This document shows, in pieces, positions 4,880 through 37,608 of a stretch of DNA of 41,420 nt (positions are counted from its first letter, which is position 1; each line of letters begins with the position of its first letter). The DNA comes from an uncultured Gemmiger sp. (lineage in GTDB: Bacteria; Bacillota; Clostridia; Oscillospirales; Ruminococcaceae). The notes under the pieces were generated by a model. It worked only from the letters and a program-made list of their open reading frames with translations, made no database searches and was not told the origin of the DNA. The stretch spans positions 1 to 41,420 of the forward strand of contig CALXHS010000075.1 in NCBI GenBank assembly GCA_944388165.1, given 5' to 3'. A program made the translations under genes and the position numbers.

Positions 4880-6406
4880 ATGTCCAAGAAACCTGTTCTT
4901 CTCTGCATTATGGACGGCTTCGGCTGGACGCCGGACAACACCTTCGGCAACGCCGTCACCGCCGCCAACACCCCCACCCTCGACAAGATTTTTGCCGAGT
5001 GCCCCATGACCACCATCGACGCTTCCGGCATGGCCGTCGGCCTGCCTGACGGCCAGATGGGCAACAGCGAAGTGGGCCACACCAACATGGGCGCCGGCCG
5101 CATCGTCTACCAGCAGCTGACCCTCATCACCAAGAGCATCCGCGACGGCGAAATGCTCAAGAACCCCGTGCTGGTCAACAATATGAAGAAGGCCATCGAT
5201 GCTGGCAAGGCCATCCACCTGATGGGCCTGGTGGGCACCGGCGGCGTTCACAGCCATGCCGACCACTGGTTCGGCGTGCTGGAAATGGCCAAGCATATGG
5301 GCGCCACCAAGGTGTACCTGCACTGCATCATGGACGGCCGCGACACCGACCCCCATTCCGGCGAGGGCTTCCTGGCCGACCTGCAGGCCAAGCTGGACGA
5401 GCTGGGCATCGGCGAGATCGCCACTGTTACCGGCCGTTACTACGCCATGGACCGTGACAAGAACTGGGACCGTGAGGAGAAGGCCTATGCCGCTTTCGTC
5501 TACGGCGAAGGCCGCCATGCCGCCAACGCCCAGGAAGCCATCGACGCTTCCTACGCTGAGGATGTCACCGACGAGTTTGTGGTCCCCGTCATCACCTGCG
5601 AGGGCGGCCGCGTGGAAGAGGGCGACACCGTCATCTTCATGAACTTCCGCCCCGACCGTGCCCGTCAGATGACCCGCATCTTCGTGGACGACGACTTCAA
5701 GGGCTTCGAGCGCCGCAACGGCCGCTTCCCCGTGAACTACGTCTGCATGGCTGAGTACGACGCCACCATGCCCAACTGCGAAGTGGCTTATCCCCCGGTG
5801 GAGCTGAAGAACGTGCTGGGCGAATACCTGGCCGCCAACGGCAAGACCCAGCTGCGCATCGCCGAGACCGAGAAGTACGCCCACGTGACCTTCTTCTTCA
5901 ACGGCGGCGTGGAAGCCCCCTACGAGGGCGAGGACCGCAAGGTCATTCCCAGCCCGAAGGTGGCCACCTACGACCTGAAGCCCGAGATGAGCGCCCCCGA
6001 GGTGGCCGAAGAGTGCCGCCAGCGCATCGAGAGCGGCAAGTATGATGTCATCATCCTGAACTTTGCCAACTGCGACATGGTCGGCCACACCGGCGTGTTC
6101 GAAGCGGCTGTCAAGGCTGTGGAGGCCGTGGACGCCGGCGTCAAGAAGGTCATGGACGCTGTGCTGAAGATGGGCGGCGTCATGTTCCTGACCGCCGACC
6201 ACGGCAACGCCGAAAAGATGGAAAATCCGGACGGCACCCCCTTCACCGCCCACACCACCAATGTGGTGCCCTTCGCCGTCATCGGCGCGGGCGACGTGAA
6301 GCTGCGGGAAGGCGGCTGCCTGGCGGACATCGCCCCCACCATGCTGCCCTTCATCGGCCTGGAAGTCCCGGCTGAAATGACCGGCAAGAGCATCATCGTC
6401 GGCTGA
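4880..6406 (+). CDS. gpmI: 2,3-bisphosphoglycerate-independent phosphoglycerate mutase
   Basis: This 508-residue, manganese-dependent enzyme of the alkaline phosphatase superfamily converts 3-phosphoglycerate to 2-phosphoglycerate. The metal-binding IMDGFGW is at the N-terminus. The phosphorylated serine is S63 in QMGNSEVGH, and the second metal site includes TADHGNAE (D440, H441). The length matches the family. AAGGAG lies ahead of ATG 4880. It is the last gene of the glycolytic cluster and is followed by a strong terminator. Confidence 0.98.
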   Translation: MSKKPVLLCIMDGFGWTPDNTFGNAVTAANTPTLDKIFAECPMTTIDASGMAVGLPDGQMGNSEVGHTNMGAGRIVYQQLTLITKSIRDGEMLKNPVLVNNMKKAIDAGKAIHLMGLVGTGGVHSHADHWFGVLEMAKHMGATKVYLHCIMDGRDTDPHSGEGFLADLQAKLDELGIGEIATVTGRYYAMDRDKNWDREEKAYAAFVYGEGRHAANAQEAIDASYAEDVTDEFVVPVITCEGGRVEEGDTVIFMNFRPDRARQMTRIFVDDDFKGFERRNGRFPVNYVCMAEYDATMPNCEVAYPPVELKNVLGEYLAANGKTQLRIAETEKYAHVTFFFNGGVEAPYEGEDRKVIPSPKVATYDLKPEMSAPEVAEECRQRIESGKYDVIILNFANCDMVGHTGVFEAAVKAVEAVDAGVKKVMDAVLKMGGVMFLTADHGNAEKMENPDGTPFTAHTTNVVPFAVIGAGDVKLREGGCLADIAPTMLPFIGLEVPAEMTGKSIIVG

Positions 6407-21198: not shown

Positions 21199-21879
21199 AT
21201 GCTTTTGTACTGGATCCTGCTGCCCATCGTATGGGTGTTGATGCACATTGTCTGGCGCGTGCGGGTGGTGGGCCGTGACCTCATTCCCCGCGGACGCCCT
21301 ATCGTGGTGGCGCCCAACCACCTTTCGGAACTGGACCCGGTGTTCATCCTGGTGGTGATCTTCCGTTTCCGCCGTTTCCGCATCCTGGCCAAGCAGGAGC
21401 TCTTCCGCAATCCCTTTGTGGCCTGGTTCCTGCGCTGCATGGGCGCGGTGCCCATCGACCGGGGCCACGGCGACCTGGAAACCGTCAACCGGGTGACCGA
21501 AGAATGTAAAAAGGGCACCGGTGTGCTCATCTTCCCTGAAGGCACCCGCAGCAAGGACGGCAAACTGGGCAAGCTGAAAAGCGGCGCCTTCGTCATTGCC
21601 GGACAGGCCGGGGCGGACATGGTGCCCTGCCGCATCATCTACGATACCCCCGACCACCGGATGCACCTGTTCTGCCGCATGCGCATCTGTTTCGGGCAGC
21701 CCATCCCGGCGGAGGAACTGCGCATCACCGACCCGCGCCACCAGATCAAGGAACTGCGGGCCCTGCGCACCCGCCTGACCGACGCGCTGGAAGAACTGTA
21801 CCGGGAAAACAGCTTTGAGCCGGCGGAACTGCCTGCCGCCGACCCTGCGCCCCAGGCCGACCCCAAACCCGAAACCTGA
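21199..21879 (+). CDS. plsC: 1-acyl-sn-glycerol-3-phosphate acyltransferase
   Basis: This 226-residue membrane-associated enzyme makes phosphatidic acid. One N-terminal membrane helix (residues 1-20) is followed by the NHLSELDP catalytic HX4D motif and [10 protein letters not shown], the glycerol-phosphate site. [11 protein letters not shown] and a Pro/Ala-rich C-terminal tail end the protein. The ribosome site (AGGAAATGG) is weak. It lies between cmk and ispH. Confidence 0.93.
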
Positions 21880-21895
21880 ATACAGGAGAACTGCC

Positions 21896-23827
21896 ATGGA
21901 GATCATTCTGGCCAAGACCGCCGGCTTCTGCTTCGGCGTGGACCGTGCCGTCAAGCTGACCTACGAACTGCTGGACAAGGGCTGCCATGTGGCTACTCTG
22001 GGCCCGCTGATCCACAACCCCCAGGTGGTGCAGGACCTGGAAAGCCGGGGGGCGCTGACCTGCCCCGACATCGACGCTGTGCCCGACGGGTACGAGGTCG
22101 TCATCCGCAGCCATGGGGTGCCCCGGACGGTCTATGATAAAATCAGCACACGCGGCCTGGCGTTTCATGACGCCACCTGCCCATTTGTGTCAAAAATCCA
22201 TAAAATAGCCGAAGAAGCGGGCAGGAATGGTGCGCTTTTGCTGGTGGCGGGGGATGCGTCACACCCTGAAGTACAGGGGATTGTCGGCCATACAAGCGGA
22301 GAAGTGCGGGTTTTTGCGAATCTGGACGAGTTGGAAAAGATACATGAAATTCTTACGCATCAAAAATCCATTTATGTGGTGGCGCAAACCACTTTTCGGG
22401 TTCAAAGTTGGGAAAGTTGCAAGGCTTCTCTAAAAAAGTGGTGTACAAATGCCAAAATATTTGATACAATATGTAATGCAACGTGGGCGAGGCAACAGGA
22501 GGCGGAGGACCTCAGCCAAAAATGCGATCATATGATCGTCATTGGTGGTCATCATTCCTCCAACACCCAGAAACTGTTGCAGGTCGCCGCCCGGCATACC
22601 GATGCCGTCACCGTCGAGACAGCTGATGAACTTGACCGTGCATGGCTCAAAGGTGCCAGGGTGGTGGGCGTAACAGCCGGGGCTTCCACGCCTTCGTCTA
22701 TAATTGAGGAGGTACTTAACTGTATGAGTGAAGAAATCCGTGACGACATGAGTTTTGCCGAAATGCTCGAGGCCTCTGAGGCGAAACCTCTGTTCGCAGG
22801 TAAGATCGTTAAAGCCAAGGTCATCAGCGTCAGCCCCACGGAGTGCGTCGTGGGCATCGACGGCTCCAAGCACACCGGCATCGTCAAGCTCAACGAGATG
22901 ACGCATGATCCCAACGCCAAGATGGAAGACCTTGTTAAGGTGGACGACGAGCTGGATCTGGTGGTTGTCAAGACCAACGACCAGGAAGGTGTCGACACCC
23001 TTTCCCGCGTCCGTTTCGAAGCCCAGAAGGGCATGAAGGACGTTTCCGAAGCTGCCGAGAACGGCACCGTCATGGAAGGCGACGTTATGGAAGCCAACAA
23101 GGGCGGCGTCGTCGTCAATGTCAAGGGCGTGCGCGTCTTCGTGCCCCGCTCTCAGGCCACCATGCGCCGTGACGAAGACTACACCAAGCTGGTGGGTCAG
23201 CATGTACGTCTGGTCATCACCGAATGCGCCGGCCGCAAGATCGTCGGCAGCATCAACAAGGTGACCGCCGAAGAGAACAAGGCCAAGCGTGAAGAGTTCT
23301 GGCAGAACGTGGAAGTGGACAAGCACTACACCGGCGTTGTCAAGAGCCTGACCTCCTACGGCGCCTTTGTTGACATCGGCGGCGTGGACGGCCTGTGCCA
23401 CATCAGCGAGCTGAGCTGGTCCAACCTGAAGCATCCCTCTGAGGTTGTCAGCGTGGGCGACACCATCGACGTCTACGTCAAGAGCTATGACCCCGAGAAC
23501 CAGAAGGTTTCCCTGGGCTACAAGAAGGAAGAGGACAACCCCTGGGAGAAGCTGAAGAACGAGTATCCCATCGGCAGCGAGTTCACCGCTCCGGTGGTCT
23601 CCATCACCAAGTTCGGCGCCTTTGTCCGCATCCTGCCCGGTGTTGACGGTCTGGTCCACATCAGCGAGATCTCCAAAGAGCGCGTGAACAAGGTCAGCGA
23701 CGTGCTGAAGGTGGGCGACGAAGTCCGCGTGAAGCTGATCAACGTCGACTTCGACCGCAAGCGTATCAGCCTGTCCATGAAGGCCTGCGAGGACGAAGTG
23801 GCCGGCGACGATACCGACGCTGAATAA
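21896..23827 (+). CDS. ispH: IspH (HMBPP reductase) fused to ribosomal protein S1-like RNA-binding domains
   Basis: This 643-residue fusion joins two enzymes common in Clostridia. Residues 1-276 are IspH, the 4Fe-4S enzyme that reduces HMBPP to IPP and DMAPP in the MEP pathway, with cluster cysteines C12, C95 and C193 and conserved RSHGVP and SSNT. Residues 277-643 hold four S1 RNA-binding repeats, the last two with clear [20 protein letters not shown] and [29 protein letters not shown] (22706-22712) before in-frame ATG 22724 allows separate synthesis of the S1 part. Bases about 22140-22560 are AT-rich with ATA codons, unlike the rest. A terminator follows the stop. Confidence 0.95.
22706..22726 (+). 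promoter_or_regulatory. Internal ribosome-binding site and start codon for a separate S1 protein
   Basis: GAGGAGG at 22706-22712 lies 11 bases before ATG 22724, which is in frame and falls exactly at the IspH/S1 boundary. A TATAAT hexamer at 22699-22704 has no matching -35, so it is noted only. Confidence 0.5.
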
Positions 23828-26212: not shown

Positions 26213-27022
26213 TTACAATTCCAGCTCCACCCCGCTGTGCAGGGCACGCAGCTGGTCTCCCATGATCTGCTGCATCCGCTCAAAGGCCGGGCGGCCGGTG
26301 CAGTGGCCGGAGTAAAACCGGCAGCGGTGCTGTGTCAGGGCGCGGGCGGTGTTCTCAATGACCTGCCACTCTTCGGGGGTGTAGTCGGTACCTTTTTTCA
26401 TGTGGAACCCGCTGACGACCATATCCGGATCGCCGCCGAAAATCTCCCTGTACCGGTCCAGAATGTTCAGGATACCGTTGTGGGCGCAGCCGGACAGCAG
26501 CACCCGCCGCCCCTCCGCTTCCACCACCAGGCACTGTTCATGGGCAAAATCGTCCTGCACCGGCACGCCGTTCCGCATCACCCGCAGGTCTAGATTGCTC
26601 TGGGGCCAGTACCGCCGCCCGGTGATGCCGCTGAAAAGATACAGCTCCTCATCCAGCCGGGCGTCTCCGTCCAGAAAATGCATCCGGGGCAGGGCAAGAA
26701 CAGCCTTGTCCATGCCGATGTACTTGTCCCCGTGGTAAAAATCCCCTCCGGCGCTGCGCTGCATCCAGATGTTGGCTTGCGGGGCCAGCTCGGCCATGCG
26801 CAGCAGCCCGCCCGCATGGTCGTAATGCCCGTGGCTGAGCACCACCGTGTCCACCTCGGACAGGTCGATGCCCACCGCCGCGGCGTTGTCCGCAAAAGCG
26901 GAGGTGGAGCCGGTGTCCAGCACCAGAGTGTGGCGGGGTGTCTGCAAATACAGGCTCAGGCCGTGTTCGTGGGCGCAGCCTTCGGCGCCGGGGGTGTTTT
27001 CGATCAGGGTCACAATGCGCAT
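26213..27022 (-). CDS. MBL-fold metallo-hydrolase
   Basis: This 269-residue protein has the metallo-beta-lactamase fold with VLSHGHYDHAGG (H64, H66, D68, H69) and further metal-ligand candidates in LSGCAHNGILNIL, VSGFHMKKG and YSGHCTGRPAFERM. The last motif is typical of the branch that includes methanopterin-pathway RFA-P synthase-like hydrolases; the bacterial role is unknown. The start ATG 27022 follows GGGAGGG; an in-frame extension further upstream has no ribosome site. A clear promoter lies at 27054-27082. Confidence 0.85.
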   Translation of the reverse strand: MRIVTLIENTPGAEGCAHEHGLSLYLQTPRHTLVLDTGSTSAFADNAAAVGIDLSEVDTVVLSHGHYDHAGGLLRMAELAPQANIWMQRSAGGDFYHGDKYIGMDKAVLALPRMHFLDGDARLDEELYLFSGITGRRYWPQSNLDLRVMRNGVPVQDDFAHEQCLVVEAEGRRVLLSGCAHNGILNILDRYREIFGGDPDMVVSGFHMKKGTDYTPEEWQVIENTARALTQHRCRFYSGHCTGRPAFERMQQIMGDQLRALHSGVELEL

Positions 27023-27053
27023 GGATGGTCCCTCCCGAGATTGTTCTGGTTCC

Positions 27054-27082
27054 AGTATACCCCACCGGCCGGACTGAAACAA
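27054..27082 (-). promoter_or_regulatory. Promoter of the metallo-hydrolase gene
   Basis: On the minus strand TTGTTT (27082-27077), a 17-base spacer and TATACT (27059-27054), 32 bases before the start codon. Confidence 0.7.
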
Positions 27083-27190
27083 GGGATTCATGCGGCGCCT
27101 GTGAGGCATGCCCCGCAAAAAACGGGTTGCATTTTTGACCATTCTTCGGCTGGACAGCATGTTCAACTTGTGTTAAGGTTGTGATAGAAA

Positions 27191-27269
27191 ATGCGTCCGG
27201 CCCAAAGGGGCAGACGCGGTGATTTTTGTACAAGATGGCGGCGGCACCGCAGCGGGTGCCGTTTTGTTT
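27191..27269 (+). ncRNA. Candidate orphan small RNA or plus-strand terminator
   Basis: Between two minus-strand genes the plus strand carries a hairpin (GCGTC 27193-27197 with GACGC 27213-27217, inner GCCC/GGGC) and then a second hairpin (CGGCACC 27242-27248 with GGTGCCG 27255-27261) followed by TTTTGTTT. The T tail points only to the plus strand, where no gene precedes it. A promoter upstream (27130-27185) is not convincing. Expression is unproven. Confidence 0.3.
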
Positions 27270-27272
27270 GGT

Positions 27273-27473
27273 TCAGGCGGCGCGGTAGATCCAGTTCCCG
27301 CTGCCGGCGGGGGGCTTTTCATACCACCCGGCCTGCCCGGCGGCGGGGCGGGTCAGGTCCACCGCGGCCACGCGGCGGGCAGTGGGGGGGCGCAGCACGG
27401 CCACCAGCAGAACGGCGGAAAAAACCAGGAAGGCCAGACTGGCCAGATGACGCTTGGCGGTGTTGCTTAACAT
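27273..27473 (-). CDS. Small membrane-anchored protein (66 aa), unknown function
   Basis: ATG 27473, after GGAAAGGGACC, opens a 66-residue frame. It has a basic N-terminus (LSNTAKRH), one membrane helix (LASLAFLVFSAVLLVAVL, about residues 9-26) and an outside tail rich in Arg, Pro and Ala that ends GSGNWIYRAA. No family is recognised. It has its own leader shared with the divergent flavoprotein fusion gene. Confidence 0.5.
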   Translation of the reverse strand: MLSNTAKRHLASLAFLVFSAVLLVAVLRPPTARRVAAVDLTRPAAGQAGWYEKPPAGSGNWIYRAA

Positions 27474-27613
27474 GGCAGGGTCCCTTTCCTTTCTGTGCCG
27501 GAGAAAACGGTTGCGTTCTTTGGATGGGATACAGCATACCGGGCCGATGTATCGGGAATGTATCGTTTTCAGAGGAATTTTGCAAAAAAACCGGGGCAGG
27601 AGATACAATGGGT

Positions 27614-27642
27614 TTGTGTTTTGCCCCCGTTTGCGGTATGAT
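27614..27642 (+). promoter_or_regulatory. Promoter of the CoA-disulfide reductase/siroheme fusion gene
   Basis: TTGTGT (27614-27619), a 17-base spacer and TATGAT (27637-27642), about 90 bases before the start codon. Confidence 0.65.
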
Positions 27643-27738
27643 AGTAATAAGCCGCCGGCCCGGTTTTCAGGGGCCGGGATTGATTCGGAAACAGAAGAGC
27701 CGGAGAGCGCTGCGGTGTGTCCCCGGCAGGAGGTTCGT

Positions 27739-30312
27739 ATGAAAGTTGTCGTCATCGGCGGCGTGGCCGCCGGTACCAAGGCTGCCGCCAAACTCAAGCG
27801 GGAACAGCCGGACGCCCAGGTGGTCATCTACACCAAGGGGCAGGACATCTCCTACGCGGGCTGCGGCCTGCCCTACTACGTGGGCGGCGGCATCGCCACC
27901 CGGGAAGAACTCATCGTCAACACCCCGCAGAAATACGCGGGTCTCACCCAGGTGCAGGTGTTCACCGGCCGGGAGGCTGTGGCCGTGGACGCCGCCGCCA
28001 AGACCGTCACCCTGCGTGCGGTGGACACCGGTGCTGAGGAGACCGAAACCTACGACAAGCTGATCCTGGCTGTGGGCGCCGAACCCTTTGTGCCCCCGGT
28101 GCCCGGCAAGGACCTGCCCGGCGTGTTCACCCTGCGCACCCCGGACGACGCCATCGCCCTGCGTGACTGGGTGGACAAGAAGGGCTGCCGCCGCGCCGTG
28201 GTGGTGGGCGGCGGTTTCATCGGCCTGGAAGCCGCCGAAAACCTGGTGGCCAAGGGTCTGAACGTCACTGTGGCGGACATGGCTTCCCAGCTCATGCCCA
28301 ACATCTTTGACCCCGAATTGGCGGGCTATGTCAAGACCAAGCTGCAGCTGGCGGGTGTGCGGGTGCTCACCGGCACCGCCCTGCAGGGCATCACCGGCAA
28401 CGGCAAGGCCGAAGGCGTCACCACCGACGCCGGGACCCTTCCCGCCGACGTGGTGGTGCTGGCCATCGGCATCCGCCCGGCCACCGCTTTCCTGGCCGAC
28501 AGCGGCCTGGATATGTTCAAGGGAACCATCAAGGTGGACAACAAGCAGCAGACCAACCTGCCCGATGTCTACGCCGTGGGCGACTGCGCCATGGTGTTCA
28601 ACGCCCTTACCGGCAAGCCCCAGTGGTCTGCCATGGGTTCCACCGCCAACATCACCGGCCGCTGCCTGGCCCGCAACCTGGCCGGGCATGAGAGCCTGTA
28701 CGGCGGCTGCCTGGGCACCGGCGTGGTCCGCCTGATGGAGGGCCTCAACGCCGGCCGCACCGGCCTGACCGAAGCCCAGGCCAGGGATGCGGGTTATGAC
28801 CCCGTCACCGTGGTCTGCGTCACCGACGACAAGGCCCACTACTTCCCCGGGGCGGACAGCTTCATCACCAAGCTGATTGCCGACAAAGCCACCCACAAGC
28901 TGCTGGGCATCCAGGTGCTGGGCGGCGGCGCAGTGGACAAGATGGTGGACATCGCCGTTACCGGCATTTCCATGGGCGCGACTCTGGAAACCTTCAACAC
29001 CCTGGACTTTGCCTACGCGCCGCCCTTCTCCACGGCCATCCATCCCTTCGTCCAGGCCTGCTACATTCTGGAAAACAAACTCTCCGGCGCCTTCGAGACC
29101 TTCACCCCCGCCCAGTACGCGGCCGGCGAAGCCGCGGACTATCAGGTCATCGACGTGCAGCCCGCTCCCGCCATCCCCGGCGCCCGCTGGGTGAACCTGG
29201 CCCAGGTCACCGGACCCATTGAGGGTCTGGACAAGGACGCCAAGCTGCTGCTGGTCTGCGCCAAGGGCAAGCGGGGCTACTTCCTGCAGAACCGCCTGAA
29301 GTCCTTCGGCTACACCAACACCCGGGTGCTGGAAGGCGGCGTCACCTTCAACAAGGTCAAGGTGGCGGTGGCCGCTGGTGCCCTCACGCCCCAGGAGATC
29401 AAGCGGGTGAAGGGCCTGGGCTGTCTGCAGGACAAGCGTTACCCCGACGTGTTCAACGTCCGCGTCATCACCCGCAACGGCAAGATCACCGCGGCGGAAC
29501 AGCGCACCATTGCCGAAGCTGCCGAAAAGTTCGGTTCCGGCGAAGTGACCATGACCACCCGCCTGACCCTGGAGATCCAGGGTGTGCCTTACGCCAACCT
29601 GGAAGACCTGATGGAATTCCTGGCCCAGGCCGGGCTCAAGACCGGCGGCACCGGCTCGCTGGTGCGGCCCGTGGTCTCCTGCAAAGGCACCACCTGCCAG
29701 TACGGCCTGCTGGATTCCTTCGGCCTGAGCGAGAAGCTGCATGAACGCTTCTACATCGGTTACCACGATGTCACCCTGCCCCACAAGTTCAAGATCGCCG
29801 TGGGCGGCTGTCCCAACAACTGCGTCAAGCCCGATCTGAACGACCTGGGCATCGTGGGCCAGCGTGTTCCCATGATCGATTCCGCCAAGTGCCGGGCCTG
29901 CAAGAAGTGCCTGGTGGAGGCCAACTGCCCCATCCACGTGGCCAAGCTGGAAAACGGCACTCTGCACATTGATCCCAACGCCTGCAACCACTGCGGCCGC
30001 TGCAAGGGCAAGTGCCCCTTCGGCGTGACCGAAGAGTTTGCGGACGGCTACAAGATCTATATCGGCGGCCGCTGGGGCAAAAAGATCGCCCACGGCCATC
30101 CCATCGACAAGATCTTTACCTCCGAGGAGGAAGTGCTGGATATGGTGGAAAAGGCCATCCTGCTCTTCCGCACCGAAGGCATCACCGGCGAACGCTTCGC
30201 CGATACCATCGACCGTCTGGGCTTTGACTATGTCCAGAACAAACTTCTGACCGAGTCTCTGGACAAGTCCGAAGCGCTGAAAAAGACCGTGATCGGCGGC
30301 GCCAGCTGCTGA
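27739..30312 (+). CDS. Multidomain fusion: CoA-disulfide reductase-like flavoprotein + rhodanese + sulfite/nitrite reductase siroheme domain + 2x[4Fe-4S]
   Basis: This 857-residue cytoplasmic protein is chosen from ATG 27739 after AGGAGG. Residues 1-445 are a pyridine-nucleotide disulfide oxidoreductase: FAD loop VVIGGVAAGTKAA, redox C42 in YAGCGLPYY, NAD loop VVVGGGFIGLEAAEN, and a dimerisation domain. Residues about 450-540 are rhodanese-like with the Cys loop CAKGKRGY (C507). Residues about 560-710 match the sulfite/nitrite reductase half-domain and siroheme-4Fe-4S ligands: CKGTTC (C648, C653) and GGCPNNC (C691, C695). Two ferredoxin motifs follow (C718/721/724/730 and C749/752/755/759). 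NADH electrons could thus reach a siroheme centre for reduction of sulfite or a related sulfur compound. The substrate is inferred. It lies upstream of a metal-chelate importer and siroheme synthase. Confidence 0.88.
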   Translation: MKVVVIGGVAAGTKAAAKLKREQPDAQVVIYTKGQDISYAGCGLPYYVGGGIATREELIVNTPQKYAGLTQVQVFTGREAVAVDAAAKTVTLRAVDTGAEETETYDKLILAVGAEPFVPPVPGKDLPGVFTLRTPDDAIALRDWVDKKGCRRAVVVGGGFIGLEAAENLVAKGLNVTVADMASQLMPNIFDPELAGYVKTKLQLAGVRVLTGTALQGITGNGKAEGVTTDAGTLPADVVVLAIGIRPATAFLADSGLDMFKGTIKVDNKQQTNLPDVYAVGDCAMVFNALTGKPQWSAMGSTANITGRCLARNLAGHESLYGGCLGTGVVRLMEGLNAGRTGLTEAQARDAGYDPVTVVCVTDDKAHYFPGADSFITKLIADKATHKLLGIQVLGGGAVDKMVDIAVTGISMGATLETFNTLDFAYAPPFSTAIHPFVQACYILENKLSGAFETFTPAQYAAGEAADYQVIDVQPAPAIPGARWVNLAQVTGPIEGLDKDAKLLLVCAKGKRGYFLQNRLKSFGYTNTRVLEGGVTFNKVKVAVAAGALTPQEIKRVKGLGCLQDKRYPDVFNVRVITRNGKITAAEQRTIAEAAEKFGSGEVTMTTRLTLEIQGVPYANLEDLMEFLAQAGLKTGGTGSLVRPVVSCKGTTCQYGLLDSFGLSEKLHERFYIGYHDVTLPHKFKIAVGGCPNNCVKPDLNDLGIVGQRVPMIDSAKCRACKKCLVEANCPIHVAKLENGTLHIDPNACNHCGRCKGKCPFGVTEEFADGYKIYIGGRWGKKIAHGHPIDKIFTSEEEVLDMVEKAILLFRTEGITGERFADTIDRLGFDYVQNKLLTESLDKSEALKKTVIGGASC

Positions 30313-30513
30313 GAACGGCCCGGCACTGCCGGGCATATACAACCGAAAAAAGCATACAGGATCTGCCGGACCGCAAGACGGAAAAGGGCCTTAAAACGAT
30401 CCTCTGCTTGTCTGTTTTACAGCGGCAGGGGCGTGGTGTACCCTCAACGCCGGGCGGCCCGGCTTTTTTCGGTCCCGAGGGGAAATTTGTGTGCAAAAGG
30501 GAAAGGAACACAG
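30313..30513 (+). promoter_or_regulatory. Structured leader ahead of the ABC importer genes
   Basis: A 7-bp hairpin GCCCGGC-ACT-GCCGGGC follows the fusion gene stop without a T tail. Further on, AGGATC/GATCCT and CTGCCG/CGGCAG can form competing pairs, before a terminator at 30449-30469. No known riboswitch is recognised (no cobalamin box). It may be an uncharacterised attenuator or only spacer. Confidence 0.35.
30449..30469 (+). terminator. Intrinsic terminator 45 bases before the importer lipoprotein gene
   Basis: GCCGGG-CGG-CCCGGC is followed by TTTTTT. It could end the fusion-gene transcript or regulate the importer by attenuation. Confidence 0.7.
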
Positions 30514-31494
30514 ATGAAAAAACTGCTTGCAACCATTCTGGCACTGGGCCTGCTGGCCGGGTGCACGGCGGCCGCGCCTGCCGATACCGCCGAATCTGCC
30601 GAATCGGCACAGACCACCGCCCGGCCCGCCACCGCCGAGACCTCCGGTGCTGTGACCATCGTGGATGATCTGGGCCGCAGCGTCACGGTGGATAACCCCC
30701 AGCGGGTGGCGGTGCTCATCGGCAGCTTTGCCGATGTATGGTGCCTGGCGGGCGGGGAGGACAGCCTGGTGGCCACCGCCCACGATGCCTGGACCTACTT
30801 TGACCATCTGCCCCTGGATGGGGTGGTGGACCTGGGGGCCACCAAGGAGATCAGCCTGGAGACCCTCATTGCCGCCGAACCGGACTTTATCGTGGCCAGC
30901 TGCAACACCCAGCTGGATCTGGACCTCATGCCCACCTTTGAGGAAATGGGCATCCCCGCCGCCTACTTTGAGGTGAGCACCTTTGAGGATTACCTGAGCA
31001 TGCTGGACCGCTGCACCCAGATCACCGGGGATACCGGCGCCTGCCAGACCAACGGCGCCGATGTGCAGGCCCAGGTGGATGAAGCTATCGCCCGGGCGGA
31101 CGGCAGCCAGCCTTCGGTTCTGTATATCCGGGTATCCAGTTCCGGCTGCAAGGTCAAAAACAGCAAGGATAACGTTCTGGGCGAGATGCTGGCCGCCCTG
31201 GACTGTGTCAATATCGCCGACCGGGAAGGTTCTTTGCTGGAAGACCTGAGCATGGAAGTCATCATGCAGGAGGACCCGGATTATATCTTCCTGGTTTACC
31301 AGACCGCCGACCCCTCGGTGGCCGAGGCGGTGGCCGACCAGACCCTGCGCAGCGACCCCGCCTGGGGCGCCCTGCGGGCGGTGCAGGAAGGCCGCTGCTA
31401 TGTGATGGACCAGACGCTGTACAACCTGAAACCCAATGCACGGTGGGGGCAAGCCTATGAACAACTGGCGGACATTCTGTACCCGGCTGCGTGA
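30514..31494 (+). CDS. ABC transporter substrate-binding lipoprotein (iron-siderophore/cobalamin type)
   Basis: This 326-residue protein has a signal peptide with lipobox LLAGC (lipid-modified C17), an Ala/Thr/Glu-rich spacer, then a helical-backbone binding fold of the FepB/BtuF class. Typical landmarks are IVDDLGRSVTVDNPQRVAVL, VVDLGATKEISLETLIAAEPDF and WGALRAVQEGRCYVMD near the end. It would deliver a metal chelate, heme or corrinoid to the permease. ATG 30514 follows GGGAAAGGA. The neighbouring permease, ATPase and siroheme synthase suggest an iron source for siroheme, but this is inference. Confidence 0.87.
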   Translation: MKKLLATILALGLLAGCTAAAPADTAESAESAQTTARPATAETSGAVTIVDDLGRSVTVDNPQRVAVLIGSFADVWCLAGGEDSLVATAHDAWTYFDHLPLDGVVDLGATKEISLETLIAAEPDFIVASCNTQLDLDLMPTFEEMGIPAAYFEVSTFEDYLSMLDRCTQITGDTGACQTNGADVQAQVDEAIARADGSQPSVLYIRVSSSGCKVKNSKDNVLGEMLAALDCVNIADREGSLLEDLSMEVIMQEDPDYIFLVYQTADPSVAEAVADQTLRSDPAWGALRAVQEGRCYVMDQTLYNLKPNARWGQAYEQLADILYPAA

Positions 31495-32479
31495 GCACCC
31501 GGCGGCGACAGGGCTGTTCCTGGCCCTGGTGACCCTGGTCCTGGCGGTACTCAGCCTCTGCGTGGGGGCGGTGGAAGTAAGCCCCGCCCAGGTGCTGCGG
31601 GCGCTGCTCACCAATGACCCCGCCGACGTTTCCGCCCGGGTGGTGCTGTATTCCCGCCTGCCCCGCACCTGCGGCAGCCTGCTGGCGGGGGCGGCGCTGG
31701 CGGTGTCCGGCGTCATCATCCAGACGGTGCTGGCCAACCCCCTGGCGGCGCCCCATATCATCGGCGTCAACGCCGGCGCGGGGCTGGCCGTCACCATCAG
31801 CTGCGCCCTGGCTCCTATGACCGCCATGCGGCCCCTGGCTGCCTTTGCGGGGGCCATGGTGGGGGTGCTGCTGGTGCTGCTCTTTGCCGAAACTACCGGT
31901 GCTTCCCGCATTACCCTGGTGCTGGCGGGTGTGGCCATCTCCAGCATCTTCAGCGCCCTCATCGACGCGGTGACCACCATCTATCCCGACGCCCTCATCG
32001 GCTACACCGATTTCCGCATGGGCGGATTGGCGGGGGTCACCATGGCCCGGCTGGCCCCGGCGGCGGTGCTCATCGGCATCAGCCTTTTGGCGGTGTTCGG
32101 CCTTACCGGCCTGCTGGACGTGCTGGCCCTGGGTCCTGAGACCGCCCAGAGCCTGGGCCTTTCGGTGCGCCCCACCCGGCTGCTCTTCCTCACCCTGGCG
32201 GCGGCTTTATCCGGCGCGGCGGTGAGCTTCTGCGGTCTGGTGGGCTTTGTGGGCCTGCTGGTTCCCCACGCCGTGCGGGCGGTGGTGGGGGAGGAGAGCC
32301 GCCCCCTTGTCGTCTGTTCTGCCCTGGGCGGTGCGGCCCTTATGACCCTGTGCGACCTGGTGGCCCGCACGGTGGCCGCGCCCTTTGAACTGCCGGTGGG
32401 CACGGTGCTCAGCGTGGTGGGTGGGCCTTTCTTCCTGTGGCTGCTGGTCCGCCAGAGAGGAGGCCGCACCCATGATTGA
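31457..32479 (+). CDS. FecCD family ABC transporter permease
   Basis: This 340-residue inner membrane protein has about nine or ten helices and standard FecCD segments: SRLPRTCGSLLAGAALAVSG, NPLAAPHIIGVNAGAGLAV, and CGLVGFVGLLVPHAVR followed by the coupling region and ELPVGTVLSVVGGPFFLWLL. ATG 31457 is preferred, with GGGGG seven bases upstream; it overlaps the lipoprotein gene by 38 bases. Two chains plus two ATPase chains would form the importer. Confidence 0.92.
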   Translation: MNNWRTFCTRLREHPAATGLFLALVTLVLAVLSLCVGAVEVSPAQVLRALLTNDPADVSARVVLYSRLPRTCGSLLAGAALAVSGVIIQTVLANPLAAPHIIGVNAGAGLAVTISCALAPMTAMRPLAAFAGAMVGVLLVLLFAETTGASRITLVLAGVAISSIFSALIDAVTTIYPDALIGYTDFRMGGLAGVTMARLAPAAVLIGISLLAVFGLTGLLDVLALGPETAQSLGLSVRPTRLLFLTLAAALSGAAVSFCGLVGFVGLLVPHAVRAVVGEESRPLVVCSALGGAALMTLCDLVARTVAAPFELPVGTVLSVVGGPFFLWLLVRQRGGRTHD

Positions 32480-33248
32480 ACTGCAACAGGTACAGGCCGG
32501 GTACCACAAACGCCCGGTGCTGCGGGGCATCGACCTGGAATTCCGCCCCGGGGAGGTGCTGGCCCTCATCGGGCCCAACGGCAGCGGCAAAAGCACTCTG
32601 CTGCGCACCGCGTTGGGGCTGCTGCCCTGCACCGGGGGCCAGGTGCTGTATGACGGTGTGCCGCTCACACAGCTTTCCCCCCGGCAGGTGGCCCAGCAGG
32701 CGGCTTTTTTGTCCCAGACCCGCACCACCCCCAACATCACCGCCCGGCGGATGGTGCTGCACGGGCGGTTCCCCCACCTGTCCTATCCCCGGCATTACCG
32801 GCCGGAGGACAGGGCCATCGTGCAACAGGCCCTGGAGGAAGCAGACGCCGCCGACCTGGCCGACCGCCCCATGAACGAACTCAGCGGCGGCCAGCGGCAG
32901 AAGGTCTATCTGGCCATGGCCATTGCCCAGCAGACTCCCGCCGTGCTCATGGATGAGCCCACCACCTTCCTGGATATCGCCCATCAGCTGGGGGTCATGG
33001 AGATGGCCCGCCGCCTGGCACAAGGGGGGCGGGCGGTGGTGCTGGTGCTCCACGACCTGCCCCTGGCCATGGGCGGCGCCCACCGCCTGGCGGTGCTGGA
33101 AGACGGCCTGCTGGTGCACAGCGGCACCCCCGAAGAAATTTACACCAGCGGCGTGCTGGAACCGGTGTTCCACATCCGGCAAAGCCGCACCAAGACCGCC
33201 GACGGCTGGCGGTATTTCTGTGAACTGCCCCAGAAGGAGGAAGGATAA
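32472..33248 (+). CDS. ABC transporter ATP-binding protein (FepC/BtuD type)
   Basis: This 258-residue ATPase has Walker A GPNGSGKST, the Q-loop AAFLSQTRTT, signature LSGGQRQK, Walker B AVLMDEP and switch LVLHD. It powers the FecCD-type importer. It overlaps the permease by 8 bases and is followed immediately by cysG, whose start is the base after the ATPase stop. Confidence 0.95.
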   Translation: MIELQQVQAGYHKRPVLRGIDLEFRPGEVLALIGPNGSGKSTLLRTALGLLPCTGGQVLYDGVPLTQLSPRQVAQQAAFLSQTRTTPNITARRMVLHGRFPHLSYPRHYRPEDRAIVQQALEEADAADLADRPMNELSGGQRQKVYLAMAIAQQTPAVLMDEPTTFLDIAHQLGVMEMARRLAQGGRAVVLVLHDLPLAMGGAHRLAVLEDGLLVHSGTPEEIYTSGVLEPVFHIRQSRTKTADGWRYFCELPQKEEG

Positions 33249-34565
33249 ATGCCCTGGTTCCCCATGTTTGTGCAGCTGAAAGGCACCGAAGCCCTCATTG
33301 TGGGGGGCGGCACCGTGGCTTTGCGCAAGGCTGAAAAACTGCTGCCCTATGGTCCCCACATCAAGGTGGTGGCCCCGGATATCATCCCGGAACTGGCGGC
33401 GCTGCCGGGGCTGACCCTCTGCCGCCGTCCTTTTGAGGAAAAGGACCTGCAAGGTACACCTGCCCTGGTCATTGCCGCCACCGACGAACCCGCCCTCAAC
33501 CGGAACATCGCCGCCCTCTGCCGGGAAAAGCGCATCCCGGTGAATGTGGTGGACGCCCCCGAAGCCTGCGGCTTCCTTTTCCCGGCGCTGGTGCGGCGGG
33601 GACGGCTGTCGGTGGGTATCTCCACCGGCGGAGCCAGCCCCACGGCGGCGGTGTGGCTGAAAGAGCGCATCGAAAGCATTCTGCCGCCCCATTTCGGTAC
33701 CGCCCTGGACCGTCTGGAAGCCCTGCGCCCGGCCCTGAAAGCCCAAATCCCCGAGGGACGCGACCGGGCCGCCCGGTTCCGCGCCGCCTTTGAGCGGGAA
33801 CTGGCGGTGCCCGCCAGACCCGCCGCCGAAAGCCCCGCCGGCCATGTGGCGCTGGTGGGGGCAGGCTGCGGCAGCGCCGACCTCATCACGGTGCGGGGGC
33901 TGCGGCTGCTGCGGCAGTGCACCGCCCTGGTGTACGATGACCTCATCGACGCCAGCCTGCTGGATGAACTGCCCGCCGGTGCCGAAACCTTCTATATGGG
34001 CAAGCGCAGCGGCCACCACGCCGCCCCCCAGGAGGAGATCAACGCAAAACTCATTGAACTGGCCCAGGCGGGCCACCGGGTGGTGCGGCTGAAAGGCGGT
34101 GATCCCTTCGTCTTTGGCCGGGGCGGGGAAGAAGCCTTGGCCCTGCGGCAGGCGGGCATCGACTTTGAGGTGGTGCCCGGTATCTCCTCGGCCATTGCCA
34201 TCCCGGGGGAGGCAGGCATCCCCGTCACCCACCGGGGCCTGAGCCGGGAGGTGCACATCATCACCGCCCACACCAGGGCCGAAGAACAGCCCGATTACCG
34301 CAAGTACGCGGCGCTGGAAGGCACCCTGGTCTTTCTCATGGGGCTGCAGCGGCTGGAGAAGATTGCCGCTGACCTGCAGGCGGGCGGTATGGCGGGGGAT
34401 ACCCCTGCCGTCGTGGTCAGCGGCGGCAATGCCGCCCATCCCGCCGCCGTGCGGGCGCCGCTGTGCCGTATTGCCCGGGCCGCCCGGACCGCGGGGGTGG
34501 AAGCCCCTGCCATCATCCTGGTGGGCAACGTGGCGGCCCTGGATGTGTACGCCGGGCTGCAGTGA
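33249..34565 (+). CDS. cysG: Bifunctional siroheme synthase (precorrin-2 dehydrogenase/ferrochelatase + uroporphyrinogen-III methyltransferase)
   Basis: This 438-residue protein has an N-terminal CysG/Met8p domain (residues 1 to about 185), with NAD loop ALIVGGGTVALRKA, catalytic D102 in NVVDAPE and SVGISTGGASPTAA. The C-terminal CobA-type methyltransferase (about 195-438) has VALVGAGCGSADLIT, YDDLID, RLKGGDPFVFGRGGEE and VPGISSAIA. Together they turn uroporphyrinogen III into siroheme. It starts directly after the ABC ATPase gene with AAGGAGGAAGG as ribosome site. The upstream siroheme-binding fusion protein is the likely user. A perfect terminator follows. Confidence 0.95.
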   Translation: MPWFPMFVQLKGTEALIVGGGTVALRKAEKLLPYGPHIKVVAPDIIPELAALPGLTLCRRPFEEKDLQGTPALVIAATDEPALNRNIAALCREKRIPVNVVDAPEACGFLFPALVRRGRLSVGISTGGASPTAAVWLKERIESILPPHFGTALDRLEALRPALKAQIPEGRDRAARFRAAFERELAVPARPAAESPAGHVALVGAGCGSADLITVRGLRLLRQCTALVYDDLIDASLLDELPAGAETFYMGKRSGHHAAPQEEINAKLIELAQAGHRVVRLKGGDPFVFGRGGEEALALRQAGIDFEVVPGISSAIAIPGEAGIPVTHRGLSREVHIITAHTRAEEQPDYRKYAALEGTLVFLMGLQRLEKIAADLQAGGMAGDTPAVVVSGGNAAHPAAVRAPLCRIARAARTAGVEAPAIILVGNVAALDVYAGLQ

Positions 34566-34572
34566 TATGCAA

Positions 34573-34607
34573 AAAAACGGGAGAGCGATATTTCGCTCTC
34601 CCGTTTT
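34573..34607. terminator. Bidirectional terminator between cysG and the GLUG protein gene
   Basis: AAAACGGGAGAGCG and CGCTCTCCCGTTTT are exact inverse repeats with an A-rich left and T-rich right flank. It serves both convergent genes. Confidence 0.92.
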
Positions 34608-34608
34608 G

Positions 34609-37608
34609 TCATGCCTTGGCGTGATTTTTGTGTTTGCGGCGGACCAGCGCGGCCACAGCCAGCAGTAGCAGCGCGGCAGCGATGCCGCCCGCCAGCAGCG
34701 GGACCGGAAGTTCCGGCTGTTCCACGGCGGCCAGAGTGTCCTCTCCCGGCTGGACGGTGAACACCAGATAGCTGCCGTCCTCGGTGGTGTCGGCCCGGCG
34801 CCAGCTGCCGTCGGCGGTGCGCAGGTACACGGCGGTGTTTTTCCCGGCGGGCAGGTAATGCATCTGCCAGGATTCCCCGGCGCTTTCCGGCAGGGTAAAC
34901 TGCCAGCTTTCGGTGTGTTTCCCTGTTGCCAGGGGGGCGGCGTCACTGGCGTTCATGGTCAGGTCGCCGCTGCCGAAGCTGCCCTCCGCCAACAGGATGG
35001 GACGGCCGTCCTCCCGCAGTTCGCTGCCCGCCACCACGGTGGACAGGGGCGTGTACACCGCTTCAACGACCTGGTCAAAGCGGATGTTTTCGGTTTGGAA
35101 ATCCGCCCAGGCGGCGGTGCAGCCGTCCTTGGCGGGCACGGCGGGGGCACGGGCAGCATCAAAGCTGCCGCCGTAGTCCACCGTTTCGGAAGCGACCACG
35201 GCACCGTCTGCCTTGAAGGTCAGCACAATGGTGCGGAAGGCTTCGGGCAGGCCCTCCTGCCCGGTCAGGGCGGCGAAATCTTCAAAGGAGAGAGGTTCTG
35301 CCTGCCCGGCATAGCTTACCCCGTCAATGCCGCCCAGGGTGTCGCTCACAAAGTAGTTGCCTGTCTGTTCGGCTTCCTCGTCTGCCAGGGCGGCGGTCAG
35401 GGCGGCGTTTTCCAGGTTCCCGGCAATGGCGCCCACCCATTCGGTGCCTTCCGCCAGCACCAGGGCGCGGCAGCCGGTCACGGTATAACCACTGCCCGCA
35501 ATGCCGCCCACATAATCGCCGCCTTCCAGACGGCCTTTGGCAGCACAGTCCCGGATGGCCGAACGGCTGCGCCCCGCAATGCCGCCCACATAGTCGGCCT
35601 CTGTTCCAACCAGGTCCGCAAGATTGCGGCTGCTCATCACGGTGCCCATGTCCATGCTGCCCACAATGCCCCCCGCACATTCCTTTTTGGCCTGTACGGT
35701 GCCGGTGTTTTCACAGTCACGGATCACGATGCGGCTCTTGTAGGTCACATTCAGGGAACTGCTGCCGGAAATTTTGGTGTCGTCCTCGGGGTCCAGGTCG
35801 TTTTCCCGGGCCATGGCCCCGGCAATGCCTCCGGCGTTGATGTCGGCGTTCACGCTGCCTTCGTTGCGGCAGTTGAATACCTTGCCCTCGGTATCGCTGT
35901 CGGTGTCGCTGTCCGATACATCCTGAAACAGGTCGGAATTGTCCCGGGGTTCGGCGGCCCCCAGCAGGGTGTTGCCGATGACGTTCAGCTGGTCGGTGAT
36001 GGCCTGGATGTCCTGGATCAGGGCCTGGGTATGGCTGCCGGTGTCGGTGTTCAGGCTGCCCACCCCGTCCACCAGGGAGGCAAGACTGCCGTTCAGGCTG
36101 TTGCGGGCGGCGGTGATCTCGTCCCGGTTGGTCACTTCCAGGCTGGGAACGGTCAGGGTCAGCTGCCCGTCCACCGTCAGGCTGCCCTCATGCTGCAATT
36201 TTCCCGAAGGTTCCGGGGCACCGTGGGCCGCTTCGCCGCGGTCCGCCGGTTCATCGGTGGGGGCAGTATCGGCCGGGGCTTCGGTTGTGTCGGTGGATGT
36301 ATCCGCGGTGGGAACAGGTGTTTCGGTGACGTTGGGCGTTTCGCCGGGCTGCGGCTCCGGGGTGGAGGTCACTGCCGGGTCCGGCGTGGGAGTGGGCTCC
36401 TCGCTGGGAGCCGGTGTGGGGGAGGGGCTCAAATCCGTATTGCTGTTGCCGTCCAGATGGGTCAGGTCGGTGAGGGTCACTTGCTGGGTGCCGATGCTGA
36501 TGCCGTTTTCCAGCTTGTCCAGCAGGCCGTTCACCGCCGTGCGGGCGGTGTTTACCTGGTTCTGCAGCTCGTTCAGCTTTCCGGTCAGCTCGCTGGAGGA
36601 AGCCGCCGTATCCCGGTTGGCCTTGTTCATCAGTCCCTGCAGGGTGTCCAGTTCCCCCTGCAATTGCTGCAGGGTATCGGCGCTGTACTGCAAAATGCTG
36701 GAAGGCTCCATCTGCCCCACAATGCCGCCGCCCTCCTTGCGGGCATGGATGGTGCCGTAGTTCACGCAGCCTTCGATGTAGCCCGTCTGGCTGCCTGCAA
36801 TGCCGCCTACATTGTAGCCGATGTGGTCATACCCCACATTGCCCCGGTTCACGCAGGCCCGGATGACCCCGGAAGAACTGCCGGCCACACCGCCCACGTC
36901 GGTGATGTCGGCGGCGCGCTCGGTCTTGAGCAGGTCTTCCACCGTCAGGTCTTCCAGTTCCACTTCGTTCTGGCTCACGGTGGTGTTGATGTCGGCCAGA
37001 TTGGTGCACCCGGTCACCACCCCGTCGTTGCGGCCGGTCACGCCGCCGATAAAATGGTCGCCGTACACGCTGCCGCTGACCGTGCACCCGGAAATAACGC
37101 CGTCGGCGGTGTTGGTGCCCGCAATGCCGCCCACCTGGTTGGTGCCGGTCACGGTGCCCTCAAAACGGCAAGTGTCGATGGTGCCGGCGTTTTCCCCGGC
37201 AATGCCGCCCACTTCCGCCCGGGACCCGCCCGGCTGCACCGTGCCGGTGACGGTGGTCTGCCGCACGGCGCCTTCGGCCTGGATGTAGCGGAACAGCCCC
37301 TGCACGCTGCCGTCGGCGGTCAGGGTCAGGCCGCTGATGGCGTGGCCGCCGCCCTCCCACAGGCCGCCGAAGCTGGGAATGCCGGAAAATCCGGTGCCGG
37401 TCAGGTCGATGTCCGCGTCCAGATATACGATCTTGTCCCGGCTCCAGCTGTCCAGACGGCAATTTTCCGCCAGTTGGAGCAGGTCGTCGGCGTCGGTGAG
37501 ATGGATGGCGTTGTCCCCGTCCTCCGCAAAGACCGTCGCGGGCAGGCTGGCGAACAAAAGGGCGGCGCACAGCAGGGAACACAGTCCCCGTTTGACTGTC
37601 TTGGTCAT
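34609..37608 (-). CDS. Large GLUG-repeat cell-surface protein
   Basis: This 999-residue protein has a signal peptide (LLCAALLFASLPATVFA) and about eleven GLUG-like repeats of the form VGGIAGxNxGxIxxC in two blocks (about residues 115-300 and 590-760). Between the blocks lie two heptad-like helical segments (about 307-373 and 473-550) and a Pro/Thr/Glu linker (about 390-462). A Flg_new/InlB-B-like segment (VDYGGSFDAARAP) precedes the end, which is a membrane helix plus basic tail (LVRRKHKNHAKA). No LPXTG is present. It is therefore membrane-anchored and outside the cell. The start ATG shares a base with the stop of the upstream MMPL gene (TAATG), so the two are coupled and likely interact. Confidence 0.82.
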   Translation of the reverse strand: MTKTVKRGLCSLLCAALLFASLPATVFAEDGDNAIHLTDADDLLQLAENCRLDSWSRDKIVYLDADIDLTGTGFSGIPSFGGLWEGGGHAISGLTLTADGSVQGLFRYIQAEGAVRQTTVTGTVQPGGSRAEVGGIAGENAGTIDTCRFEGTVTGTNQVGGIAGTNTADGVISGCTVSGSVYGDHFIGGVTGRNDGVVTGCTNLADINTTVSQNEVELEDLTVEDLLKTERAADITDVGGVAGSSSGVIRACVNRGNVGYDHIGYNVGGIAGSQTGYIEGCVNYGTIHARKEGGGIVGQMEPSSILQYSADTLQQLQGELDTLQGLMNKANRDTAASSSELTGKLNELQNQVNTARTAVNGLLDKLENGISIGTQQVTLTDLTHLDGNSNTDLSPSPTPAPSEEPTPTPDPAVTSTPEPQPGETPNVTETPVPTADTSTDTTEAPADTAPTDEPADRGEAAHGAPEPSGKLQHEGSLTVDGQLTLTVPSLEVTNRDEITAARNSLNGSLASLVDGVGSLNTDTGSHTQALIQDIQAITDQLNVIGNTLLGAAEPRDNSDLFQDVSDSDTDSDTEGKVFNCRNEGSVNADINAGGIAGAMARENDLDPEDDTKISGSSSLNVTYKSRIVIRDCENTGTVQAKKECAGGIVGSMDMGTVMSSRNLADLVGTEADYVGGIAGRSRSAIRDCAAKGRLEGGDYVGGIAGSGYTVTGCRALVLAEGTEWVGAIAGNLENAALTAALADEEAEQTGNYFVSDTLGGIDGVSYAGQAEPLSFEDFAALTGQEGLPEAFRTIVLTFKADGAVVASETVDYGGSFDAARAPAVPAKDGCTAAWADFQTENIRFDQVVEAVYTPLSTVVAGSELREDGRPILLAEGSFGSGDLTMNASDAAPLATGKHTESWQFTLPESAGESWQMHYLPAGKNTAVYLRTADGSWRRADTTEDGSYLVFTVQPGEDTLAAVEQPELPVPLLAGGIAAALLLLAVAALVRRKHKNHAKA

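Follow-up and report, generated by a model that had tools for sequence, protein, structure and literature searches.

The coenzyme A (CoA)-persulfide reductase Npsr passes sulfur along a defined route: as described in PMC7969121, its rhodanese cysteine takes the sulfur, bound CoA ferries it to the cysteine beside the FAD, and NADH reduces it there. The F420-dependent sulfite reductase Fsr, in the account that PMC10229431 gives of its active site, holds sulfite with R355, R423, K460 and K462, has R388 as an assimilatory trait, and spaces its first cysteine pair as CX5C; group III of the dissimilatory sulfite reductase-like proteins (Dsr-LP) is defined, in the terms used by PMC3448663, by its peripheral and additional 4Fe-4S ferredoxin groups. 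The subject of this analysis is a gene that joins relatives of these two kinds of enzyme in a single chain, together with the ATP-binding cassette (ABC) importer encoded beside it. It lies in a stretch of 41,420 nucleotides (contig CALXHS010000075.1, positions 1 to 41,420 of the forward strand, assembly GCA_944388165.1, from an uncultured Gemmiger sp.), the whole of which is called the window below. Our best reading, arrived at by comparing sequences, is NADH-linked sulfite reduction that would use an imported siroheme precursor or, in many relatives, imported siroheme itself. The favoured explanation as a whole (sulfite reductase, sulfur relay and tetrapyrrole importer) is, in our estimate, slightly better than an even bet.

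Relatives came from two sources: a scan of genome contigs, which yielded 249 loci with a relative of the sulfite reductase (SIR) half of the protein (the best 80 of 249 were kept), and 295 genomes of the same order (Oscillospirales), 81 of which have a SIR match at 1e-40. (A technical note: G and L numbers designate the genomes and loci compared; G000 is the genome of the window, from an assembly that is 93.99% complete.) Homologues with the same architecture were sought, and 92 full-length fusion rows from both sources, three genomes being present twice, were aligned; fractions of 92 refer to this alignment. The fusion gene and its landmarks are:

27739..30312, plus strand: the fusion gene, with an ATG start, open for 857 codons (857 amino acids), with matches to Pfam and to solved relatives
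27729..27734, plus strand: AGGAGG, ribosome-binding-site-like, upstream of the fusion gene, read directly
27862..27864, plus strand: codon of C42, the redox cysteine beside the FAD, equivalent to catalytic Cys42 of A. fulgidus Npsr (92/92)
29257..29274, plus strand: rhodanese active loop C507-AKGK-R512 (C507 92/92, G510 92/92, R512 90/92)
29680..29823, plus strand: siroheme/4Fe-4S cysteines C648-X4-C653 and C691-X3-C695, with K683 and K685 between them, placed by alignments
29890..30015, plus strand: two ferredoxin-type groups, C718/C721/C724/C730 and C749/C752/C755/C759 (92/92 each), with Fer4 matches
30307..30309, plus strand: codon of C857, the C-terminal cysteine (91/92 fusion rows), which tracks the presence of a persulfide reductase

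The initial annotation had described CoA-disulfide-reductase-type, rhodanese and sulfite-reductase domains and ferredoxin motifs in one protein, and the open frame, together with Pfam matches over curated cut-offs, confirms it. A CoA-persulfide-reductase-like half (residues 1 to ~445) is followed by a rhodanese (~460-540) and, at ~555-857, by the siroheme sulfite-reductase half, which contains two ferredoxin motifs. The matches that pass are Pyr_redox_2 (1-290), Pyr_redox_dim (336-434) and Rhodanese (464-535), and in the C-terminal half NIR_SIR_ferr (570-630), NIR_SIR (639-839) and Fer4_6 (743-763), so that the profile searches find the SIR domain. Among solved structures, residues 2-535 match the Enterococcus faecalis CoA-persulfide reductase 8a56 best (3e-93), and in the AlphaFold2 model of the fusion (mean pLDDT 85.3, pTM 0.62) the N-terminal half is as expected, superposing on 8a56 by Foldseek with a TM score of 0.92 by target length. 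The closest solved relative of the C-terminal half is Fsr (7np8, 4.6e-39). Together these matches support reading the chain as three predicted parts: a persulfide reductase that uses NADH and FAD, a rhodanese that keeps its catalytic cysteine, and a complete siroheme sulfite reductase. Specific family models fare otherwise: among the best 25 of 99 NCBIfam matches no model reaches its cut-off, the CoA-disulfide-reductase equivalogs scoring 378.3 of 458 bits (NF007123) and 374.4 of 578.8 bits (TIGR03385), the AsrC model TIGR02912 90.8 of 324.1 bits, and the dsrA and dsrB models far under their cut-offs. We found no published characterisation of the same fusion in the open-access literature.

Counted on the pairwise alignment, R355, R423, K460, K462 and R388 of Fsr correspond to R575, R643, K683, K685 and R608; these five residues and C648, C653, C691 and C695 are invariant in 46/46. 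The cysteines that the initial annotation named are all present, and 14 cysteines (C42, C507, C648, C653, C691, C695 and the eight of the ferredoxin groups) are kept in all 92 fusion rows. The marks of a group III Dsr-LP, namely siroheme-4Fe-4S cysteines, sulfite-binding arginines and lysines, and ferredoxin groups, are thus all found in the fusion, and we think it likely that the C-terminal half is a sulfite-reducing module with siroheme coupled to a 4Fe-4S cluster, fed via two more 4Fe-4S clusters. The first cysteine pair is spaced CX4C (C-KGTT-C) and the second CX3C, which is not the canonical CX5C...CX3C pattern. The short spacing had been pointed out before, correctly; as an oddity of the fusion it does not stand, CX4C being found in 74/77 of the SIR genes examined in the order, standalone members included. 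(Among the fusion rows a CX4C regular expression matched 87/92; C648 and C653 align in 92/92.) The idea that CX4C marks a dead or specially adapted fusion was rejected, since standalone relatives have it too.

The family is widespread in Oscillospirales, Lachnospiraceae and others, and the nearest named relatives of the fusion are Gemmiger species. The gene is single-copy in the genome of the window; a one-off or an assembly artefact is ruled out by 92 full-length rows on independent contigs. The SIR protein also exists by itself, with ~310 residues and up to ~69% identity, and there are split versions: in L021 (= L122, G239) the halves are parted by a single TAA (the fusion is interrupted there, or has lately become two genes), and L023 encodes them in two neighbouring genes. 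Among plasmid records 681 match, 0 of which cover >80% of the query.

Why should a persulfide reductase be joined to a sulfite reductase? The last residue offers a suggestion. Among CX4C-type SIRs (n=74) a C-terminal cysteine is present in 17/18 of the fused ones and in 6/6 of those with a same-strand gene for a CoA-disulfide reductase-rhodanese (CoADR-rhodanese) nearby; it is present in 0/3 of those whose CoADR-like gene lies 3.3 kb off on the opposite strand, and in 0/47 of those with no CoADR-rhodanese gene in the fetched flanks. In the only fusion without it (L022/G112), R512 of the rhodanese is changed as well, to G. A relay is proposed because of this distribution, because of the sulfur route of Npsr, and because, as a 2026 paper (PMC13188885) reports, assimilatory sulfite reductases directly yield zero-valent sulfur. 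Sulfur would depart from siroheme on the flexible C-terminal cysteine C857; C857 would hand it to rhodanese C507, whence it would pass to bound CoA, and sulfide would be freed at C42/FAD with electrons from NADH. C857 would then do, from within the same chain, what the arm of DsrC does for dissimilatory sulfite reductases. That the N-terminal half is a CoA-persulfide reductase completing the reaction in this way (siroheme to C857 to C507 to CoA to C42/FAD) is a tentative proposal, to which we give somewhat less than an even chance. The direction from siroheme to the N-terminal half is the likelier one because in Npsr sulfur goes from the rhodanese cysteine to CoA and on to the FAD-side cysteine and NADH. 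The initial annotation had a bound persulfide being reduced at siroheme; this is not supported, the persulfide being reduced, in Npsr, at the cysteine beside the FAD.

Several points tell against this account of the enzyme. The CX4C spacing departs from the canonical CX5C. In the AlphaFold2 model the residues that include the CX4C loop (642-653) have pLDDT <50; given this uncertainty, and since the best 50 Foldseek matches listed for the model all go to the N-terminal half, the SIR half rests on sequence comparison. Fsr, according to PMC10229431, follows the six-electron path of an assimilatory sulfite reductase (aSir) with no intermediates, a path for which a relay arm is unnecessary. And for 47/74 CX4C SIRs no persulfide reductase is encoded nearby, so that a relay cannot be essential to the SIR itself.

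A simpler enzyme can be imagined, NirB-like, in which electrons from NADH reach siroheme from the FAD half by way of the ferredoxin clusters, the rhodanese and the two extra cysteines being leftover or regulatory. The NirB model TIGR02374 does match, at 251.5 bits, the FAD half and other stretches, and Fsr is a precedent for the fusion of an electron-donor half to a Dsr-LP half; that score is far under the cut-off of 578.35 bits, however, and a leftover is hard to square with the retention of C42 and C507 in 92/92 rows and of C857 in 91/92, or with a C-terminal cysteine that accompanies the persulfide reductase even when the two are separate genes (6/6). We regard a NirB-like enzyme as unlikely, though not negligibly so.

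Where would the sulfite come from? CysD (TIGR02039) was not found in G000 and is over cut-off in 6/295 genomes of the order (Sat and the PAPS/APS-reductase routes were not searched). This rarity, and the absence from G000, argue against CysD-dependent sulfate activation as the origin of the sulfite, and weaken the suggestion, made at the outset, of sulfur assimilation from sulfate. Our guess is that the role of the enzyme is to reduce external sulfite (from food, the host or sulfonate breakdown) rather than to assimilate sulfate. A sulfate cluster has been described for Ruminococcus bromii (PMC6378601); as far as that description goes, its SIR is probably of the second type described next, the one seen beside CysD. 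A distant second SIR type (31-35% identity) was noted in G201 (C32), G279 (C23) and G286 (C46), with CX5C in G201. The SIRs of G201 and of the second copy in G279, both of the CX5C type, and the related SIR of G286 are on the same contig as CysD and no more than about 5 kb from it; that of G286 has no motif match by regular expression. G279 holds both SIR types, and the CX4C type was not seen beside CysD.

The importer genes follow the fusion gene, and a siroheme synthase follows them:

30449..30473, plus strand: terminator-like hairpin and T run at the boundary between fusion gene and importer, from a pattern scan only
30514..31494, plus strand: substrate-binding lipoprotein (Peripla_BP_2), from Pfam, profile and structure comparisons
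31436..32479, plus strand: importer permease, FecCD family (Pfam E 1.5e-83); a later ATG, at 31457, is a possible start
32469..33248, plus strand: importer ATPase, from Pfam and NCBIfam
33249..34565, plus strand: siroheme synthase CysG, with Met8 and SUMT domains (NF007922, 407.4 bits, cut-off 400)

Both CysG domains are over cut-off by themselves (SUMT, TIGR01469, 272.3 bits; Met8, TIGR01470, 148.6 bits). The nearest solved chains of the permease are FhuB, HmuU and BtuC. Fusion gene and importer genes may form separate or attenuated transcription units; the pattern scan gave 12 terminator-like sites in 26900-34800, where 6.1 were expected. Many relatives, fused or standalone, also have this importer near the SIR.

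In the 93.99% complete assembly G000 there is no match to HemB or HemC, so that a de novo siroheme pathway was not found there. HemC was not found either in the 8 genomes of L024-L031, 7 of them Gemmiger. In the order it is present in 39/295 genomes, and SUMT is over cut-off in 40, namely those 39 and G000. The first set consists of the 77 of 81 SIR-bearing genomes that had flanks (G137, G171, G192 and G212 had none): the importer is found no more than 8 kb from the SIR in 39/48 HemC-less genomes vs 0/29 HemC-bearing ones (Fisher, with kinship ignored here and in the second set, 1.2e-13). The second set consists of the 80 genomes of L024-L103, and for it the prediction was fixed before the HemC search: 17/18 importer-linked genomes are without HemC, the exception being L087, and HemC is present in 44/62 of the unlinked ones (Fisher 5.9e-7, or 2.0e-6 minus the 3 genomes common to the first set). 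(Another technical note: L052, whose binding-protein match sits at a contig end, was scored as linked; L074 and L075, HemC-less and with such a match only, were scored as unlinked.)

Could common descent or patchy assembly generate this pattern? Many of the genomes are drafts, the Fisher tests ignore kinship, and the tree test in its narrow form misses 0.05. Yet on a quick tree of 151 SIR rows (G068, G201 and G286, whose SIRs are of a different type, were excluded) HemC changes at least 24 times; and when the trait is the importer near SIR or SUMT/HemC, independent supported pairs agree with the prediction in 6.9 cases and disagree in 0 of 10 (median p 0.016), the count on the other side being 7.6 vs 0 of 14 (median p 0.008), with no discordant supported pair. 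Four families (f1, f13, f14 and f24) hold both HemC states, each in the predicted arrangement. HemB is absent along with HemC from 74/76 HemC-less genomes, including genomes that are 98-99% complete, and is present in 4/4 HemC-bearing controls; the 2/76 that have it, G321 and G345, may be incomplete assemblies. (G014, G068, G140, G202, G243, G261 and G269, all HemC-less, were left out of the HemB and Met8 searches.) Descent or assembly is for these reasons a most improbable source of the pattern.

The importer is proposed to bring in a tetrapyrrole because these bacteria appear unable to make uroporphyrinogen III, and it would supply that tetrapyrrole to the neighbouring sulfite reductase. Its distribution makes a cargo from the siroheme branch, in our opinion, a good deal more probable than any other; less confidence attaches to the exact compound. 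Later stages of the pathway are kept to different extents. Of the 15 HemC-less genomes whose SUMT is over cut-off, 11 have the importer next to CysG, including cases in which the importer is not near the SIR (the exceptions are G310, G321, G327 and G328); Met8 is present in 19/76 HemC-less genomes, and a lone Met8-type gene comes after the importer in G170 and G090; and in the first set, where Met8 was looked for in 36 genomes with a linked importer, 33 have neither Met8 nor SUMT over cut-off. This graded presence suggests a cargo that differs by lineage: uroporphyrinogen III where CysG adjoins; precorrin-2 or sirohydrochlorin where Met8 alone adjoins; siroheme itself where there is neither. 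In the window the cargo is probably uroporphyrinogen III, because CysG is adjacent.

The binding protein does not single out such a cargo. Its best profile matches are iron-uptake proteins and its best Foldseek match is FecB with ferric citrate, which would suit an importer of iron chelates (siderophore or ferric citrate) that serves the Fe-S clusters of the enzyme, iron being the link between the two. Iron as cargo would leave unexplained, however, both the linkage to the SIR in 39/48 HemC-less vs 0/29 HemC-bearing genomes and the adjacency to CysG in the HemC-less SUMT genomes, and we hold it improbable. Equally improbable, in our view, is a cargo of heme or of cobalamin/cobinamide, whether for general use or as another tetrapyrrole for the SIR domain. 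HmuU and BtuC are indeed among the relatives of FecCD, and many genomes of the order hold CbiF-like methyltransferases under the SUMT cut-off. But an RNA-family scan of window positions 20000-41420 and of 21 importer-linked loci found no riboswitch at gathering score, which speaks against control by cobalamin; the neighbours of the importer are siroheme genes (CysG or Met8); and the active-site residues of the SIR are the same in 70 HemC-bearing and 81 HemC-less rows, so that the SIR cofactor is probably the same in both.

What weighs against a tetrapyrrole importer of the siroheme branch can be enumerated: 1) The binding protein, of class III, resembles iron-siderophore, ferric-citrate and heme binders alike. 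2) When the trait is confined to the importer near the SIR, the pairs lean as predicted, with median p of 0.125 and 0.07 and 1 pair to the contrary. 3) In a control of 69 HemC regions (L066, though HemC-bearing, contributed none), 4 have a FecCD-like permease and ATPase, at 31-34% identity (32-34% for the permeases) and with no matching binding protein. 4) In 19/81 HemC-less rows there is no importer near SIR or CysG (some were examined at one place, and several lie at contig ends). 5) L087 (G358) has fusion, importer and CysG together and yet has HemC. 6) G310, G327 and G328 have CysG with no importer nearby; nothing tetrapyrrole-related was found among the CysG neighbours of G310.

One can think of the whole arrangement as siroheme parasitism: many gut Clostridia would keep a siroheme enzyme in the absence of HemB and HemC, and mostly of SUMT and Met8, acquiring siroheme or whichever precursor suits their stage of loss (uroporphyrinogen III, precorrin-2/sirohydrochlorin) through a dedicated ABC importer whose genes adjoin the enzyme or the synthase that is left, and the fused members would add a DsrC-like C857 arm that delivers sulfur to their own NADH persulfide reductase. 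We advance this generalisation with some diffidence, its chances being a shade under even. No description of siroheme import was found in the open-access literature, and we know of no siroheme-type uptake system; if the proposal is true, these genes are a candidate set for the first one. Should the importer's cargo prove to be a siroheme-branch tetrapyrrole, these bacteria would owe the cofactor for sulfite reduction to other members of their community, which would be a cross-feeding link. The importer, if confirmed, would be more surprising than the enzyme, and its conjunction with the loss of the tetrapyrrole pathway, neither of which the initial annotation had noticed, is the most unusual part of this system. 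The terminal-cysteine rule, for its part, provides a handle on the exit of sulfur from siroheme. Gut sulfide is commonly attributed to bacteria with dsr or asr and to those that degrade cysteine. Surveys that use specific NCBIfam models would miss this family, because none of the specific cut-offs tested is passed.

Other genes recur in the neighbourhood. A divergent gene cluster lies near the fusion gene in 22 loci (L047 and 21 others of L024-L103); one scanned member of it is a LysR-type regulator, and LysR genes also sit between split SIR and persulfide-reductase genes (L105, L107). In 16 loci (L100, at 5811-6242, and 15 others), mostly of the Mediterraneibacter group, a gene is found upstream of the fusion, one scanned member of which is DUF134. 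For standalone SIRs that have no importer, Pfam scans of selected neighbours found no recurring sulfur gene. Elsewhere in the window, at 21815-23827 on the plus strand, is a gene whose translation reads like IspH (LytB) followed by S1-type repeats (ribosomal protein S1); an IspH-S1 fusion occurs in other Firmicutes.

How does the system compare with those already known? Over residues 1-537 the fusion has the fold, the domain order (FAD/NAD, dimerisation, rhodanese) and the catalytic cysteines of Npsr/CoA-persulfide reductase (8a56, 6pfz, 3icr, 3nta); unlike Npsr, the chain is extended by a whole siroheme sulfite reductase, and its last residue is a conserved cysteine. That second half, like the C-terminal half of Fsr (7np8, 7npa, 9tn7) and like group III Dsr-LP/AsrC, consists of one sulfite/nitrite-reductase repeat with two inserted ferredoxin groups. 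Fsr is also a fusion of donor and reductase, and its sulfite-binding residues are kept in the fusion of the window. The differences are in the donor (an F420H2 oxidase in Fsr, an NADH/CoA-persulfide reductase with rhodanese here), in the first cysteine pair (CX4C instead of CX5C) and in the extra C-terminal cysteine tail. NirB, which is built of FAD/NAD and siroheme reductase parts, likewise has both in one chain; unlike NirB, the fusion has a rhodanese between its halves, a redox cysteine by the FAD and two ferredoxin groups. DsrC has a C-terminal cysteine arm, on which the proposed relay is modelled; DsrAB, DsrC and DsrL are separate proteins, whereas the fusion of the window is one chain.

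The three importer subunits belong to the superfamily of the class III ABC importers for siderophores, heme and vitamin B12 (FhuB, HmuU and BtuC types). No characterised class III member with a siroheme-type cargo was found in the open-access literature, and, unlike the known ones, the type found in the window is linked to SIR or CysG in HemC-less genomes. Salvage of early tetrapyrroles has itself been predicted: for cobamides, PMC8123684 gives uroporphyrinogen III salvage in 0.04% and precorrin-2 salvage in 0.6%, and archaea without HemBCD may, according to PMC8351635, take up uroporphyrinogen III. Those predictions, in the passages of the two papers that deal with salvage, have cobamides or F430 as their subject and mention no importer; in the present case the product served would be siroheme, and a candidate importer can be named.

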